From positions 1-42,551 of the forward strand of contig JAMQHH010000035.1 of assembly GCA_025993875.1 (NCBI GenBank): a stretch of DNA of 42,551 nt, in the 5' to 3' direction. The DNA comes from Candidatus Dojkabacteria bacterium (GTDB lineage Bacteria; Patescibacteriota; Dojkabacteria; J137). Positions 8,363 to 14,838 of this stretch are shown piece by piece; position 1 is the stretch's first letter; each line of letters starts with the position of its first letter. Under the pieces are notes generated by a model, which made no database searches, was not told the origin of the DNA, and saw nothing but the letters and a program-made list of their open reading frames with translations. Both the position numbers and the translations under genes were made by a program.

Positions 8363-9847
8363 ATGCAGCCAAACCTGTTAACCAAAATTGAAAACTATAA
8401 GTCTTTTGAGAAATTGATAAATAAGCAGACAAGATATCTTGATACAAAGCTGATCGATAAAGCGTATAAATTTGCCAAAGAGGCTCACTATGGGCAAACC
8501 CGCATCTCGGGCGAATCTTACGAATCCCATTTTCTAAATGTGGCCGCTATTGTAGTCCAATTAGGGCTCGATACTACCTCAGTTACTGCTGCCTTGTTAC
8601 ACGATGTGGTGGAAAAAGCTAATGTTGACATAAATAAAATAGATAGGGTTTTTGGTACCGAAGTTGCATTCATAGTAGATGGGCTAACACAAATTCGTAA
8701 GGCTACCGAGCAAAAGGATGTACAGGATGAAAACTTTAAGCATTTTCTTTTAAGTACTACTGAAGATATAAGAATTTTGATAATAAGAATTGTCGAAAAA
8801 ACCGATAATGTAGTAAACCTCAGCAAAGTCCCCGAAGATATAAGGGTTAAAGCTGCTAAAAAAATTATGAACTTATATTCACCTTTAGCAGAATATCTGG
8901 GACTTGGATATTTACAAAAGACAATGGAAGATGCAGCTTTTAAGGTGCTATATCCAGATATTTATTCAAAAATAATGTTATTTTCGGAAAAATTTTTTAG
9001 CAGATCCCAAGATACAACTGATCAATTTTTAGAAAAAATAGGAACAATTTTAAAAAAATACAGTATACAGCCTTTGGAACTTCAGGGCAGAAGGAAAGGC
9101 ATGTGGAGTACCTATAAAAAATTAAAGAAAAGATATCTAAAACCCGGTGAAGAGCTAAACGAAGAAACATTTTCGATGATTAAAGATCTTTTTGCTGCAA
9201 GAGTAATTCTAAATAATATTGAGGAGTGTTACACAGTTTTAGGGCTAATGCATTCAAATTTTGCTTTTTTGCAAAACGATTTTGATGATTACATTGCTAA
9301 CCCTAAGGAGAACGGATATAGGTCTATACAAACTATAGTTTCTTACGAAGGTTTTTATTTTGAGGTGCAAATTCGCACAAAGGAGATGCACGACTACAAC
9401 GAGTTTGGCCCGGCTTCGCATATCGCTTATAAGTTAAATGGGCCTGTTAATGTTGGAAGCACTTTGACCTGGACAAAAGATCTTGTTAAGTGGAAAAAAA
9501 CTTCTGAAGTTACAAAAGAGGATTTTAAAATTAAGCTGTTTGCCAACAGTATATTTGTTTTTACACCAAAAGGATTGTTAATAAGGCTCGAAAAGGGTGC
9601 TACACCGATAGATTTTGCTTTTAGGATTCACTCTGATATTGGCGAGAGATATTCAGGGGCAAAAATTAATAACAAAATGGTTAGCAAAGACTATATTCTA
9701 AACACGGGGGATACTGTAGAAATAATAATTTCTGCCAAACCTACGGTTAACGAGTCGTGGCTTAAAACTGTTAAAAGTGTAGTTACAAAAGCAAAAATTC
9801 GAAAACTTTTAGCGAAAAAATTACCTGGAGAGACTTTTGTTAAATGA
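8363..9847 (+). CDS. rel: RelA/SpoT-type (p)ppGpp synthetase with a degenerate HD domain
   Basis: Makes the alarmone (p)ppGpp from ATP and GDP/GTP. At 494 residues it has an HD domain (about 30-175), a synthetase domain (about 235-360) and a TGS domain (about 383-455). It then stops just after the start of the helical domain, so the usual ZFD and ACT/RRM domains are absent (full length is about 740). In the HD domain H42, H56 and H80-D81 remain, but the hydrolytic E-D pair reads E84-K85, and the later KLADRLHN motif reads RIVEKTDN (142-149), losing its aspartate. The synthetase keeps D275, R280 and E334 (EVQIRT). It has an acidic DFDD (306-309), as in synthetase-only RelA (EFDD), not the RFKD of bifunctional enzymes. 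The H of NGYxSxHT is Q323, and the KH of GRxKH reads KG. Hydrolase activity is probably lost and synthesis probably kept. It overlaps mfd by ATGA. Confidence 0.93.
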   Translation: MQPNLLTKIENYKSFEKLINKQTRYLDTKLIDKAYKFAKEAHYGQTRISGESYESHFLNVAAIVVQLGLDTTSVTAALLHDVVEKANVDINKIDRVFGTEVAFIVDGLTQIRKATEQKDVQDENFKHFLLSTTEDIRILIIRIVEKTDNVVNLSKVPEDIRVKAAKKIMNLYSPLAEYLGLGYLQKTMEDAAFKVLYPDIYSKIMLFSEKFFSRSQDTTDQFLEKIGTILKKYSIQPLELQGRRKGMWSTYKKLKKRYLKPGEELNEETFSMIKDLFAARVILNNIEECYTVLGLMHSNFAFLQNDFDDYIANPKENGYRSIQTIVSYEGFYFEVQIRTKEMHDYNEFGPASHIAYKLNGPVNVGSTLTWTKDLVKWKKTSEVTKEDFKIKLFANSIFVFTPKGLLIRLEKGATPIDFAFRIHSDIGERYSGAKINNKMVSKDYILNTGDTVEIIISAKPTVNESWLKTVKSVVTKAKIRKLLAKKLPGETFVK

Positions 9848-12327
9848 AACTTGTTAAAACACTTCCACATCTTTCTGAACTTTTTATCAATTCCAATAAA
9901 GTTACAATTTGGTCTTCAAATCTATCGTACAACATTTACATTGCGATAAAAGAGGCTTTAGAATTATTACTAGATAATATACAAATTTACGATTTAGAAG
10001 GTTACCTGTTTAATTGTGGCTATCAGCTTGTTTCGGAAGTTACCCATAACGGAGAATATAGTAAGAGGGGCGATACATTAACAGTTTGGGGAATAGGATA
10101 CTTATATCCGTTACGGTTAGAATTCTTCGGAGATAATATTGAAAAAAGTTATTTAATTGATAACTTAACCAGACAAAAAATCGAAAGTGTAAAAAAATTT
10201 ATCCTACTTTCGGCAAAAAAGCTTGATCTTTTGGAAGTAGGCAGCCTTAACGTTAGTAACCCGCAAAAGCTAGATATAGAAAAAATTATTTTTAATAGAT
10301 CAGTAAATTTAGAGAAGTTTTATACCTTTGAAGAAATAATCCAAACGGACTTTGTACTTCCCTCTATGTTATATTCAAGATCAGATTTGCTGGAGCAAAA
10401 GATAATAAGTTTAGAAAAAGAAAACTATAACATTATTATTAAGACAAAACATAAAAACGCCTTGGACCGGAAATATTTTGGTTACATAAATAGAAAAGCA
10501 AATAGTGATTTTGGGGGTGTTTTTTTCTCTAATTTAAACAATACTGCTTACCTTGATGCAGGATTGGAATCTAACTTTTTAAAGATTGCAGTTTTAACCG
10601 ATAGGGAGATATTCGGTTCTGTTTCGATAGTTTCGAAAGATTTTAGTAAAATCAACACGCTCGAAGAATTTAATATAAAAAGACTGTTAAGCGAGATGCA
10701 GTCTCAGATAGAAATTGGCGATTTTGTTGTTCATCTCGATTACGGTATAGGAATTTATAACGGTATAGTACTGGAAAATATTAATAATGTTCCTAAAGAA
10801 TTTTTGGAGATTAGGTTTGATAAAGAAGATAAATTATTGCTGCCAATTGAACAATCGCAAAAAATTTCTAAATATATTGGGTTGGAAGGCTCGATACCAA
10901 AACTGGGAAAGCTAGGTGGCAAAGCTATCTGGAAAGAAAAGCTAGAGAAGATACAAAAATCGGCAAAATTAATTGCTCAAAATTTAATAAAGCATTATGC
11001 TGCACTGGAGGTTTCCGAAGCTGCAGCAATAAACTTAAATAAAAGTGACCTTTATTTGGAATTTGAAAAAGAGTTTAAATATAAAGAAACAGGAGATCAG
11101 TTAAGAGCTATTGATGAAATTTGTTTGGATTTATCAAAAACAAAACCCATGAACAGACTTTTGGTGGGTGATGTTGGTTTTGGCAAAACTGAGGTTTTTT
11201 TAAGAGCTGCTTTTAAGGTTATAGAGCATGGTATGCAGGTGGCTATTTTGGCTCCGACAACAATTCTTACTGCACAGCATTATTCGGTAATAAGCGAGAG
11301 ATTTAAGAACTTTCCTGTAAAGGTTGCTTATCTTTCGAGATTTAATTCTGCAAAACAAAATTCGGAAATAATTAACCAAATAAATTTAGGAAAAATAGAT
11401 CTTGTAATAGGAACACATAGATTACTGAGCTCGGATGTAAAATTTAATAACCTTGGGCTAATAGTAATTGATGAAGAACAACGTTTTGGGGTAAGGCAAA
11501 AAGAGAAAATAAAACAACTAAATTATGGAGCACATCTTCTTTCGGTAAGTGCAACTCCTATTCCAAGAACACTTGGCATGGCTTTATCTTCAATACAAAG
11601 TATTTCTATTATTACTGAGCCCCCAAGTAACAGAATTTCTATTAAAACAGAGATCACAGGTAGAGATTTAAATAAAATATCCGCGTATATTGAAAAAGAG
11701 ATACAAAGAGGGGGGCAGGTTTATATAATTCATAACGAAATCGCTACAATCGACGCATTTAAAATGCAGCTCGAAAAAATCTTGCCGGGTGTAAAGTTTA
11801 TTTCTGCACATGCCCAAATGCGCCCTGCGGTTTTAGATAAAATTATGACCGATTTTTATCAAAAAAAATTTGATGTTTTGGTCTCCACTACGATAATTGA
11901 AAATGGGATAGATCTTCCAAATGTAAACACTATAATTATAGACAATGCAAATAAATTCGGGCTGTCGCAACTTTATCAGTTGCGCGGGAGAGTAGGCCGA
12001 TCTACTGCTCAGGCATATTGCCTTTTAATAAATACTTTTTCTTTAACAAAGGAAGAGTACAATGATTCAACACTAAAACTTAGCAAGTTAAAAAAAAGAA
12101 GAGACGCTTCCACGGAAAGAATAGAGGCCTTAGTTGAAAATCAGGATTTGGGTGCCGGTTTTAGAATTTCGAGCCGAGATCTGGAAATTAGAGGGGCAGG
12201 AAATCTTTTAGGAGAAGAGCAAAGTGGCCATATTTTTTCGATTGGATTTACACTATATATGCAGATGCTTGCGGAAGAAATTATTAGACAAAAAAATAGT
12301 CCGGCTATAGAAAAACCGATTTTATAG
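9844..12327 (+). CDS. mfd: Transcription-repair coupling factor Mfd, compact form
   Basis: Mfd is a DNA translocase that pushes stalled RNA polymerase off DNA and recruits UvrA. This version has 827 residues instead of about 1,150. A shortened UvrB-like N-terminal module (with [19 protein letters not shown]) is followed near residue 290 by the polymerase-interacting RID/CarD-like domain ([16 protein letters not shown]). The RecG-like motor then has Walker [10 protein letters not shown] near 443, DEEQRFGV near 543, [15 protein letters not shown] and the motif VI region QLRGRVGRS. It ends shortly after the GFTLYMQML segment, so the C-terminal D7 domain that autoinhibits UvrA binding is missing. 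The ATG overlaps the rel stop as ATGA, implying translational coupling. The 3' end overlaps the convergent gene by 23 bases. Confidence 0.95.
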
Positions 12328-12952
12328 AAAACAGTATCTCCGAAAACTCCTTAACTGCATCTTCCATTTGGTGCTCGCCCTTTATGTAGCCATAAACGTA
12401 AAATGTTTCGATCTCAGTTTGGTACTCGTAAAGTAATATAATAGAATCTGAGGTAGTGTATTTTACTATCTCCTTAGTTGCGCCATCCGCCGCAGTTAAT
12501 GTTACATCGTCGGTGGTAGCTGTCGAAGGTGTTGCACTCATTTCTTTAGTAATTTTAAATAATCTTAGATCAGATCCTCCCGAAAGCTGAATTACAAGAT
12601 TGCCTGAAGAATCAATGTAGCTCACGTCAATATAAGTATAAGGATATTTAAAACTAAAACTATTAAATGCAATATATTCTACCTGCACCGATTTTAAAGA
12701 TTCCTCCTCTAATTTTTGCAGCTGAGAATTAATAAGCTGGTCAATTTTAGTCTCTTTTATAAGCTGATCTATTATCGGAAGATTTTTTATGGTAGAAAGA
12801 AAATAAGCTAAAAATATTACCACCAATGCAAAACCAACTGTCGCTCCAAGGGCAGTAAATATACCGTTTATAATTGCATTAACAACAATTCTGGATGGTT
12901 TACTTGCGTCAGCTATTCTTTTAAGATACTTTTTTAGTTCTAAGTCCTCCAT
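12305..12952 (-). CDS. DUF5665-like membrane-anchored protein
   Basis: A 215-residue protein. Residues about 1-80 match the pattern of DUF5665: a short helical start, SRIVVNAIINGIFTALGATV, a single membrane segment and NLPIIDQLI. The outer part (about 95-215) is predicted beta-rich with a Thr/Ala-rich loop (ATPSTATTDDVTLTAAD) and ends with a helix, loosely like the PsbP-type secreted domains of the other single-pass proteins here. Function unknown. Its last 23 bases overlap the end of mfd on the other strand. Confidence 0.75.
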   Translation of the reverse strand: MEDLELKKYLKRIADASKPSRIVVNAIINGIFTALGATVGFALVVIFLAYFLSTIKNLPIIDQLIKETKIDQLINSQLQKLEEESLKSVQVEYIAFNSFSFKYPYTYIDVSYIDSSGNLVIQLSGGSDLRLFKITKEMSATPSTATTDDVTLTAADGATKEIVKYTTSDSIILLYEYQTEIETFYVYGYIKGEHQMEDAVKEFSEILFSIKSVFL

Positions 12953-12994
12953 AATACTTGTTTAACTGTTACAACAATTAAAATATATCAGTAA

Positions 12995-13003
12995 TGATAT
13001 AAT
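12995..13003 (+). promoter_or_regulatory. Extended -10 box of rarA (TGATATAAT)
   Basis: TGATATAAT is a near-perfect extended -10. The predicted start lies about 24 bases before the rarA ATG, giving a short leader without a Shine-Dalgarno sequence. Confidence 0.55.
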
Positions 13004-13033
13004 TTTTAAAGTAGTTAAAATTTCAATTTAATA

Positions 13034-14233
13034 ATGGAACCATTAGCTTCCAAATATAGGCCTGGATTGCTTGCTGATTTTATTGGGCAGGCGCATCTTG
13101 TAGGAGCAAATTCAATTATAAGAAAATTTATTGAAAATAAAGACCTACCATCTTTAATTTTTTGGGGCCCTCCTGGAACCGGCAAAACAACGTTGGCTTT
13201 TATAATCTCAAAGGAGATAAAGGCCGATTTTTACAAGCTTTCGGCTGTTATGAGTGGTAAAGCTGATTTAAAACGTATTATGGTTAAAGCCATTAAAAAT
13301 TTTAATGAAAACAAAAAGACAATATTATTTTTAGACGAAATTCATAGATGGAATAAATCGCAGCAGGATGCCTTACTGCCCTATGTTGAAAAAGGGATAG
13401 TTACTTTAATAGGTGCAACTACCGAAAATCCTTCTTTTAGTTTAATTCCTGCTCTTTTATCTCGTTCTCGGGTTTTTACTTTTAAAAAACACGAAGTTGA
13501 GGATTTAATCAAATATGTAAAGTATCTTGTTTCTTCTTACAATCAGGAGTTTAAAAAAAGTTTAGAACTTGATCGCGATGCTCTGGAATTTATAGCTAAA
13601 GCATCGGATGGCGATTTGCGTGTTGGAGCCAATATACTGGAAAGTTTGATTTTATCGCTAAAAGATGGAGAAAAAATAACAAAGGAATTTTTGCACAAAG
13701 CTGTGGAAAACTTTTTACAGTACGAAAGTAGGGGAGAGGATCATTATAATATTATCTCGGCTGTTCACAAGTCTTTAAGAGATTCAGATCCCGATGCAGG
13801 CATTTATTGGGTAACAAGGATGCTGGAAGCAGGTGACGATCCTTTATATGTTGCGAGAAGACTTTTAAGATTTGCCTCCGAAGATATCGGGAATGCCGAC
13901 CCTATAGCATTAGTATTGGCTAATTCCGTTTTCGAAACCTGCCAAAAGCTAGGGAAGCCCGAATGTGATGTAGCATTAATCCAGCTTACAATATATCTGG
14001 CTAGAGCTCCAAAGAGTAACGAAGCGTATTTGGCCTTAGGTAAAGCTAAAAAAGATATTTACGAGTATGGTTCATTACCTGTTCCTTTGCATATTCGAAA
14101 TGCACCTACAGAATTTATGAAAAATGAAGGCTATGGAAAAGGCTATAAATATGCACACGATTATCCCGGTGCCAAGGTTGAGCAAAATCACATGCCCGAT
14201 GAACTTAAAAACAGTAAATACACAAAAGCTTAA
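13034..14233 (+). CDS. rarA: Replication-associated recombination ATPase RarA (MgsA)
   Basis: A clamp-loader-related AAA+ ATPase that acts at stalled replication forks. The 399-residue protein has the family start PLASKYRPGLLADFIGQAHL, Walker A GPPGTGKTT (45-53), Walker B LFLDEIHR (about 98-105), sensor 1 GATTENPSF (about 128) and an arginine-finger region SRSRVF. The C-terminal MgsA domain is complete (LRFASEDIGNADPIAL, IYLARAPKSNEAY, PLHIRNAPTEFMK and GYKYAHDYPGA). Its length is slightly below the usual 420-450. Its stop shares the four bases TTAA with the stop of the convergent HD hydrolase. Confidence 0.97.
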   Translation: MEPLASKYRPGLLADFIGQAHLVGANSIIRKFIENKDLPSLIFWGPPGTGKTTLAFIISKEIKADFYKLSAVMSGKADLKRIMVKAIKNFNENKKTILFLDEIHRWNKSQQDALLPYVEKGIVTLIGATTENPSFSLIPALLSRSRVFTFKKHEVEDLIKYVKYLVSSYNQEFKKSLELDRDALEFIAKASDGDLRVGANILESLILSLKDGEKITKEFLHKAVENFLQYESRGEDHYNIISAVHKSLRDSDPDAGIYWVTRMLEAGDDPLYVARRLLRFASEDIGNADPIALVLANSVFETCQKLGKPECDVALIQLTIYLARAPKSNEAYLALGKAKKDIYEYGSLPVPLHIRNAPTEFMKNEGYGKGYKYAHDYPGAKVEQNHMPDELKNSKYTKA

Positions 14234-14838
14234 TTAAGTGTATCGAGCACGGCTTTAATTTTTTTGTAATATACACGAGAAGTTTTTTTTGCAAGAGGCA
14301 GAACAAGCTCGTATCCTTCTTTTAAATATCTATAGTATTTTTCGGGTTTTAGTATTTTTAAAAAGTCCAGAGCAGAAATATTATTAAATCTATCCGATAG
14401 CTTTACTATTTTTATTCCAAAGGAACTATTTTGAATTTTATTAAATATTTTCTTGTTTTCTAAAAATTTTTCTTCAGTACTTAGATCTCCTCTATTGTAG
14501 TATTGGGGTTTTGTTAATACTTTTAAATTTTTAAGAATATGTACTCCAAAGTCTTTTTTAATACCCTCATCGGTTACTGCCGGATCGTCTTCCAGCACAT
14601 CGTGGAGTAAGGAAAGAGTAATAACATTTAACATTATTTTTTTTGGGCGTTTTAGTGAAGCTAAAAGATCCATTGTAACCGGTACAATATGTGTGTAAAA
14701 GTAATTGGCTCCATTATCTCGAAGCTGATTTTTATGTGACTTATAGGCTTGCTTATATGCTTTTTTAACTTTTACGGTCCATAAACCGCGCTTTTTTAGA
14801 ACCATTTTAAGCTGATCGGTAATAGTTTTTTGAGTCAT
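14230..14838 (-). CDS. Stand-alone HD-domain alarmone hydrolase (SpoT/MESH1-like)
   Basis: Predicted to remove pyrophosphate from (p)ppGpp. The 202-residue protein is essentially only the HD domain found at the N-terminus of SpoT/Rel. It has H35 (SHKNQLRDNG), H50 (FYTHIVPV), H79-D80 and the catalytic pair E83-D84 in LLHDVLEDD, then KLSDRFNN (146-153) with the conserved aspartate D149. These are the residues lost or changed in the rel HD domain encoded 4.4 kb away. There is no synthetase or TGS domain. The start is preceded by TAAAAT about five bases upstream, suggesting a leaderless mRNA. A role on another nucleotide cannot be excluded; the motif match to alarmone hydrolases is good. Confidence 0.85.
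   Translation of the reverse strand: MTQKTITDQLKMVLKKRGLWTVKVKKAYKQAYKSHKNQLRDNGANYFYTHIVPVTMDLLASLKRPKKIMLNVITLSLLHDVLEDDPAVTDEGIKKDFGVHILKNLKVLTKPQYYNRGDLSTEEKFLENKKIFNKIQNSSFGIKIVKLSDRFNNISALDFLKILKPEKYYRYLKEGYELVLPLAKKTSRVYYKKIKAVLDTLN

Follow-up and report, generated by a model that had tools for sequence, protein, structure and literature searches.

How does a bacterium dispose of its alarmones when the only long RelA/SpoT homolog (RSH) it encodes has very probably lost the hydrolase site? The question is raised by a contig of Candidatus Dojkabacteria bacterium (JAMQHH010000035.1, assembly GCA_025993875.1; 42,551 nt, hereafter the window), which carries the gene rel and a gene for a stand-alone HD protein of the small alarmone hydrolase (SAH) type. 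In B. subtilis hydrolysis is essential whenever any synthetase is active, and its loss is lethal in model species with an active synthetase (PMC12373219); a 2011 survey of bacterial genomes found Rel[HS] or SpoT[HS] kept in 92% of them (PMC3153485). We consider it probable that the window Rel is a synthetase-only Rel[hS], the sole long RSH of its genome, and that alarmone removal has been outsourced to interchangeable partners. The residue changes, domain content, family conservation, gene distribution and linkage reported below were read directly from the sequence.

Active sites and domains of the window Rel

8363–9847, plus strand: rel, encoding a 494-aa long RSH (pseudo-HD, synthetase and TGS; without ZFD or ACT)
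8462–8905, plus strand: HD (HD_4) domain of Rel, residues 34–181; metal ligands H53, H77, D78 and E81 retained
8615–8617, plus strand: codon of K85 (D82 of RelSeq and B. subtilis); K or R in 5/5 intact family Rels, and the equivalent of human MESH1 D66K
8795–8797, plus strand: codon of E145 (D144 of RelSeq and B. subtilis); E in 5/5 intact family Rels, followed by the invariant K146
9086–9439, plus strand: synthetase (RelA_SpoT) domain of Rel, residues 242–359; catalytic residues retained except H312, which is Q
9551–9727, plus strand: TGS domain of Rel, residues 397–455, identified by a domain match

The two open reading frames reported in an earlier note on this DNA, rel and the stand-alone HD gene, were both found at the positions given there, together with the motifs HDVVEKA and RIVEKTDN in Rel. 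HD_4, RelA_SpoT and TGS follow one another in the order of a long RSH. Compared with the Rel[HS] architecture HD-SYN-TGS-ZFD-ACT the last two domains are lacking, as the note had stated: neither was matched in the domain search, and the tail after TGS is short and without a recognisable domain. TGS, however, is retained. The protein scores 429 bits against TIGR00691, below the model cutoff of 499, and among solved structures its top matches by sequence are B. subtilis Rel, mycobacterial RelA and E. coli RelA. In an AlphaFold2 model (pLDDT 78.7) the HD and synthetase (SYN) domains are confident and the linker 355–393 is not; the model has a Rel/RelA-type fold and matches the catalytic domains of S. 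aureus Rel with a target TM of 0.94.

The genome (930 kb, 96% complete) is small, in keeping with the placement in the candidate phyla radiation made in the earlier note. It yielded a single PF04607 match, that is one Rel, and this search revealed no second, hidden copy. Being the sole RSH gene of its genome and clustering with the Rels of its own class in the tree, it falls outside the RelA[hS] orthologous group.

ZFD and ACT are ribosome-binding domains, and TGS contacts deacylated tRNA in RelA. Lacking ZFD and ACT, the window Rel probably does not join the ribosome by the usual route; with TGS in place, off-ribosome sensing of deacylated tRNA is conceivable. Such a Rel can be active, because the minimal synthesis-active unit of a long RSH consists of HD or pseudo-HD, SYNTH and Core (PMC9974481).

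The active sites were compared with those of 24 reference Rels from many bacterial phyla. R44, H53, H77, D78 and E81 of the hydrolase site are retained. D82 is replaced by K (D in 23/24 references, E in 1/24) and D144 by E (D in 24/24), and R145 and H147 are changed as well, to K and D. Measured against the complete Rel[HS] site (H53, H77, D78, E81, D82 and D144), the window Rel thus fails at D82 and D144. The earlier note had both residues of the catalytic E-D pair and the later aspartate lost; this holds for the two aspartates and not for E81, which is kept.

The change at D82 has a counterpart in human MESH1. We take D66 of MESH1 to be the aspartate of the HDxxED dyad, in line with the family pattern and because E65A is the other inactive mutant. 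E65A is described in PMC13221220; D66K has been described as inactive in catalysis, and crystals of this mutant contained NADPH (PMC9894426; see also PDB 5vxa and 9chy). A PAPS complex is also on record (PDB 9chy). The parallel supports a loss of cleavage in the family Rels and hints that the site may still bind a ligand. Judged by its residues, the hydrolase site of the window Rel is very probably dead.

The synthetase site retains R241, K243, S247, K251, D264, R269, Y308, the EVQIRT residues, H332 and E336 (R243, K245, S249, K253, D275, R280, Y319, E334, Q336, R338, H343 and E347 in the protein's own count), among them D275, R280 and E334, which had rightly been called intact. Two residues deviate: H312 (own count H323) is Q and H244 (own count H246) is G. 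The Q is unique to the window Rel within its family.

Candidate partners for alarmone removal in the window's family

14230–14838, minus strand: stand-alone HD protein of the SAH type, 202 aa, with intact active site; the 3′ end shares 4 nt with a rarA-like gene (13034–14233, plus strand)
14587–14604, minus strand: HDVLED motif of the stand-alone HD protein (H79, D80, E83, D84), intact
14392–14394, minus strand: D149 of the stand-alone HD protein (equivalent to D144), intact, in KLSDRFNN

The stand-alone protein keeps R40, H50, H79, D80, E83, D84 and D149, the full set of SAH residues, in agreement with its earlier description as HD-only with intact motifs. Its Pfam HD_4 match lies under the cutoff; NCBIfam spoT_relA and many solved Rel and SAH chains match it, over the HD domain only. 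The AlphaFold2 model (pLDDT 91.8) finds its best matches in P. aeruginosa SAH (PaSAH), MESH1, RelH, Rel and SpoT, and a Foldseek probability of 1.00 with query TM values of 0.65–0.72 to PaSAH, MESH1, RelH and SpoT is in accordance with an SAH fold. A sensitive SAH profile detected Rel and this protein as the only HD_4/SAH-type proteins of the window genome. These data support the view that the sole intact HD protein of predicted (p)ppGpp-hydrolase type in this genome is encoded by the separate gene at 14230–14838.

The SAH sits in a supported clade of 14 stand-alone proteins (support 95/96), apart from the HD domains of the family Rels; on this ground fission of one Rel into Rel and HD protein was rejected. 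Within the class, all genomes in which this clade was seen have a broken Rel or no Rel. Viral contigs searched with the SAH gave no match.

The window's family was sampled with nine genomes. Six carry rel (G000, G001, G004, G006, G007 and G008; G, L and f numbers are our handles for genomes, loci and families) and Rel is lacking in G002, G003 and G005. Five of the rel genes are intact, and all five encode K/R82 and E144-K145. The HD changes are no sequencing noise, since four relatives at 46–48% identity share them. Mean identity among the family Rels is 50% in HD and 48% in the synthetase; the HD domain is as conserved as the synthetase, and its change is therefore old, fixed and constrained, a result of neither drift nor decay.

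The rel of G007 (L237:9705-11268) is frame-broken at two slippage-prone sites, a run of eight A (~10211) and a 10-copy TAGAT pentanucleotide array (10617-10667) in the synthetase region. A four-copy TAGAT probe found no second match in the G007 genome. The frame breaks could be phase variation, decay or assembly error.

Searches with the single protein, HD_4 and the SAH profile found a stand-alone HD protein in two of the six Rel-bearing genomes (G000 and G007) and none in G001, G004, G006 and G008, which include well-assembled ones (G001, 3 contigs, 96% complete; G008, 1 contig, 91%). The proposals that the lineage as a whole spreads synthesis and hydrolysis over a pair of genes, and that a dead Rel always co-occurs with a stand-alone HD protein, are thus contradicted by four genomes, G008 being a single contig. 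In three of these four (G004, G006 and G008, from three genera of the family) a Nudix gene directly adjoins rel in divergent orientation. The three Nudix genes are located as follows.

L234:10544-10978, plus strand: rel-adjoining Nudix gene
L235:2718-3218, minus strand: rel-adjoining Nudix gene
L236:3285-3818, minus strand: rel-adjoining Nudix gene

A profile built from the three gave ~239 bits for these proteins, a score that is high by construction, and at most 42 bits for anything else in the order; the informative part is this gap. With this profile no close homolog was found in the order outside the three, and no match whatsoever in the window genome. The rel-linked Nudix belongs to PF00293; in sequence it comes closest, among solved chains, to those of the MutT type and of CTP pyrophosphohydrolase. 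Replacement of the hydrolase by a Nudix enzyme is plausible because (p)ppGpp-degrading Nudix enzymes are known, namely NahA, MutT, NudG and Ndx8 (PMC7584652), and we infer that the rel-linked Nudix acts in alarmone removal in the sister genera. Exactly one of the two candidate partners, SAH or Nudix, is present in 5/6 Rel-bearing family genomes and neither in the three Rel-less ones (one-sided Fisher ~0.05, calculated by hand on few, related genomes, with two of the Rel-less genomes only 78–82% complete).

Hydrolase-site states across the class

In the class sample of 86 genomes the HD site could be scored in 54 Rels, 11 of them intact and 43 broken; two more have D82 → N. A class tree computed from the synthetase and TGS regions alone shows at least five switches of HD state, direction uncounted; most switches are probably losses, because the outgroup is intact. 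The kind of lesion varies: D78 is retained in the window's family, where D82 and D144 are altered, whereas most Rels of the large f7/f14-f17 group have lost D78. In B. subtilis Rel, D78A is a hydrolase-dead mutant (PMC12373219). What is striking here is the repeated loss of the hydrolase site in the sole long RSH of the class, with differing or undetected partners, and this extends beyond the pair in the window.

In G021 (L241) and G023 (L242) two tandem genes of the SAH clade lie directly upstream of the dead rel on the same strand, an operon-like SAH-SAH-rel arrangement in which the second SAH copy has itself lost the D144 motif. The same locus of G022 (L118) lacks rel and the intact SAH, and only the degenerate copy is left, with KLESW replacing the D144 motif. 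The array and the joint loss are the best genetic hint that the SAH clade serves Rel. No adjacent Nudix neighbour of rel was found in other families of the class by profile or signature.

The class sample also bears on three features of the synthetase. The earlier note had taken the acidic DFDD as a RelA-like mark of a monofunctional enzyme, and had named IQT and KG as deviations worth testing. Among the 11 hydrolase-intact class Rels, the DFDD-type D at the K297 position is present in nine, Q at H312 in five, and S, N or G at H244 in all; shared in this way, none of the three is a reliable mark of monofunctionality. RXKD/EXDD has been linked to GTP/GDP preference by Atkinson et al. (PMC3153485), and the deviations may affect substrate choice.

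Rels truncated at the C terminus are common throughout the class, and ZFD and ACT are lacking also in short Rels whose HD domain is intact (G024, G027, G044, G045) or nearly so (L219). We rejected the idea that C-terminal loss follows from hydrolase loss: the raw Fisher p is 0.001, but the independent events are too few and short HD-intact Rels exist. The Rels at L018 and L019 (G030, G031) have long C-terminal tails and only D82 altered (HDVIENC, E-N for E-D), which may represent an early stage on the way to hydrolase loss. In the Rels of G032-G034 and G037-G038 (L057, L059, L060, L063, L068) the HD domain is unrecognisably eroded and a C-terminal tail of 100–190 residues is kept, an order of loss opposite to that in the window's family.

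Alarmone turnover and competing explanations

In the mechanism that we favour, the window Rel would make (p)ppGpp at its largely intact synthetase site. Its HD domain would remain a folded pseudo-hydrolase under constraint. Like the pseudo-HD of RelA, it probably continues to shape the synthetase and may also gate it in response to a ligand; in E. coli RelA this domain regulates synthesis (PMC8012599). Removal of (p)ppGpp would take place in trans, by the SAH in the window genome and by the rel-linked Nudix in the sister genera, the hydrolase partner being exchangeable. Synthesis by Rel without hydrolysis, the SAH activity, the Nudix role and the regulation are what we infer here. A bolder version is possible, and we hold it only tentatively: the Rel HD domain may be a naturally evolved equivalent of the MESH1 D66K trap, binding the alarmone uncleaved to gate synthesis, with removal repeatedly passed to unrelated, interchangeable partners, the stand-alone HD protein in some genera and the divergent Nudix in others. 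If true, the alarmone circuit would be non-ribosomal and product-sensing and would contain no bifunctional RSH.

Several points weigh against a synthetase-only Rel served by outside partners. The first-shell metal ligands of the HD site are all kept except D144, and E can bind metal, so that residual hydrolysis is conceivable. Four of the Rel-bearing family genomes gave no SAH match, and in G001 this Rel stands without an SAH or a linked Nudix. The general HD profile PF01966 lists other HD-domain proteins in all nine family genomes, and G001 may encode a further HD hydrolase. Across the class an intact stand-alone HD protein occurs in 12/43 broken and 1/11 intact genomes (Fisher p 0.26, no significant link), and no SAH was detectable in 31/43 dead-Rel genomes. 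A strict coupling of dead HD and SAH, which fails in the family and is non-significant class-wide, was therefore rejected. SAHs elsewhere also use other nucleotides (ppApp, NADPH, CoA).

This versatility is the starting point of the strongest rival explanation, which we regard as rather unlikely: the SAH acts on another 3′- or 2′-phosphorylated nucleotide (ppApp, NADPH or CoA/PAPS), and the alarmone is removed by something unrecognised. SAHs and MESH1 have further substrates (PMC9894426, PMC13221220, PMC10434055), in most genomes the SAH gene lies apart from rel, an SAH-clade gene persists in G022 and G070, where no Rel was detected, and most dead-Rel genomes lack an SAH, so that some other remover is needed there. 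It is difficult to reconcile with the SAH genes in line with the dead rel in G021 and G023, with the loss of rel and the intact copy (SAHa) together in G022, and with the absence of the SAH clade from every class genome with an intact Rel.

Alternatively, the K82/E144 site could be rewired yet active, with E144 binding metal and E81 activating water; Rel would then be bifunctional and the SAH accessory. The description of MESH1 D66K as inactive (PMC9894426), the invariance of D144 and near-invariance of D82 across phyla, and a candidate external hydrolase in five of the six Rel-bearing family genomes make this clearly unlikely, even though H53, H77, D78 and E81 are kept in an HD domain as conserved as SYN, K82/E144/K145 are fixed and not drifting, the presumably active SAHa of G021 reads HDVPEKD, with K after E, and G001 has this Rel without a known partner. 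Least likely of all is a decaying module, in which genome reduction took the C-terminal domains and the hydrolase first and Rel, on its way out, has little function: G002, G003 and G005 have no Rel, the frame of rel is broken twice in G007 and many Rels of the class are C-terminally truncated, but in the five intact family Rels clear constraint acts on the synthetase residues and on the HD fold as a whole, and the rel-Nudix pair is conserved over three genera.

The favoured synthetase-only Rel with outside partners resembles known systems in part. RelA[hS] of beta- and gammaproteobacteria is likewise a long RSH with an active synthetase and a retained inactive pseudo-HD (both predicted for the window Rel) and with an acidic EXDD/RXKD residue. 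RelA, however, has lost HDxxED entirely, keeps ZFD/RRM and coexists with SpoT, whereas the window Rel, whose change is of independent origin, keeps HDxxE and the metal ligands, carries D82 → K and D144 → E, and is without ZFD/ACT and without SpoT. The window SAH shares with MESH1, PaSAH, RelH and Tde-SAH the stand-alone HD protein of ~200 aa, all active-site residues and the same predicted fold, and differs in belonging to a separate clade, seen in this class, and in being ~20% identical to SAHs of solved structure. Separate proteins for synthesis and hydrolysis have precedents in the small alarmone synthetase (SAS) and SAH of Treponema denticola and in the RelA and hydrolase-only SpoT[Hs] of Acinetobacter (PMC10434055, PMC9974481). 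T. denticola has no long RSH and Acinetobacter has two paralogous ones, whereas the window combines a pseudo-HD long RSH with a stand-alone HD protein not split from it. The rel-linked PF00293 gene of the three relatives may be compared with the Nudix (p)ppGpp hydrolases NahA, MutT, NudG and Ndx8; it is not present in the window genome. In the one library searched for (p)ppGpp in the candidate phyla radiation (CPR)/Patescibacteria, the titles and abstracts obtained contained nothing on hydrolase loss.

If true, repeated loss of the hydrolase site in the sole long RSH of the class would overturn the in-cis hydrolase as a fixed core of the system. In view of the rel-Nudix pairing, Nudix enzymes would then be candidates for primary rather than auxiliary alarmone hydrolases. 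The case makes testable both the role of the pseudo-hydrolase domain and the range of enzymes able to replace the hydrolase.

In two families of the class rel also has recurrent neighbours of the recombination type, named here by eye. The f15 loci (e.g. L274, L278, L285) conserve rarA-like, tyrS-like, rel and recG-like genes, and the f10 loci (e.g. L267, L268) recA-like, recJ-like and rel. In the window, the rel stop and the start of an mfd-like gene (named from its translation) share 4 nt, and the rarA-like gene abuts the SAH gene.

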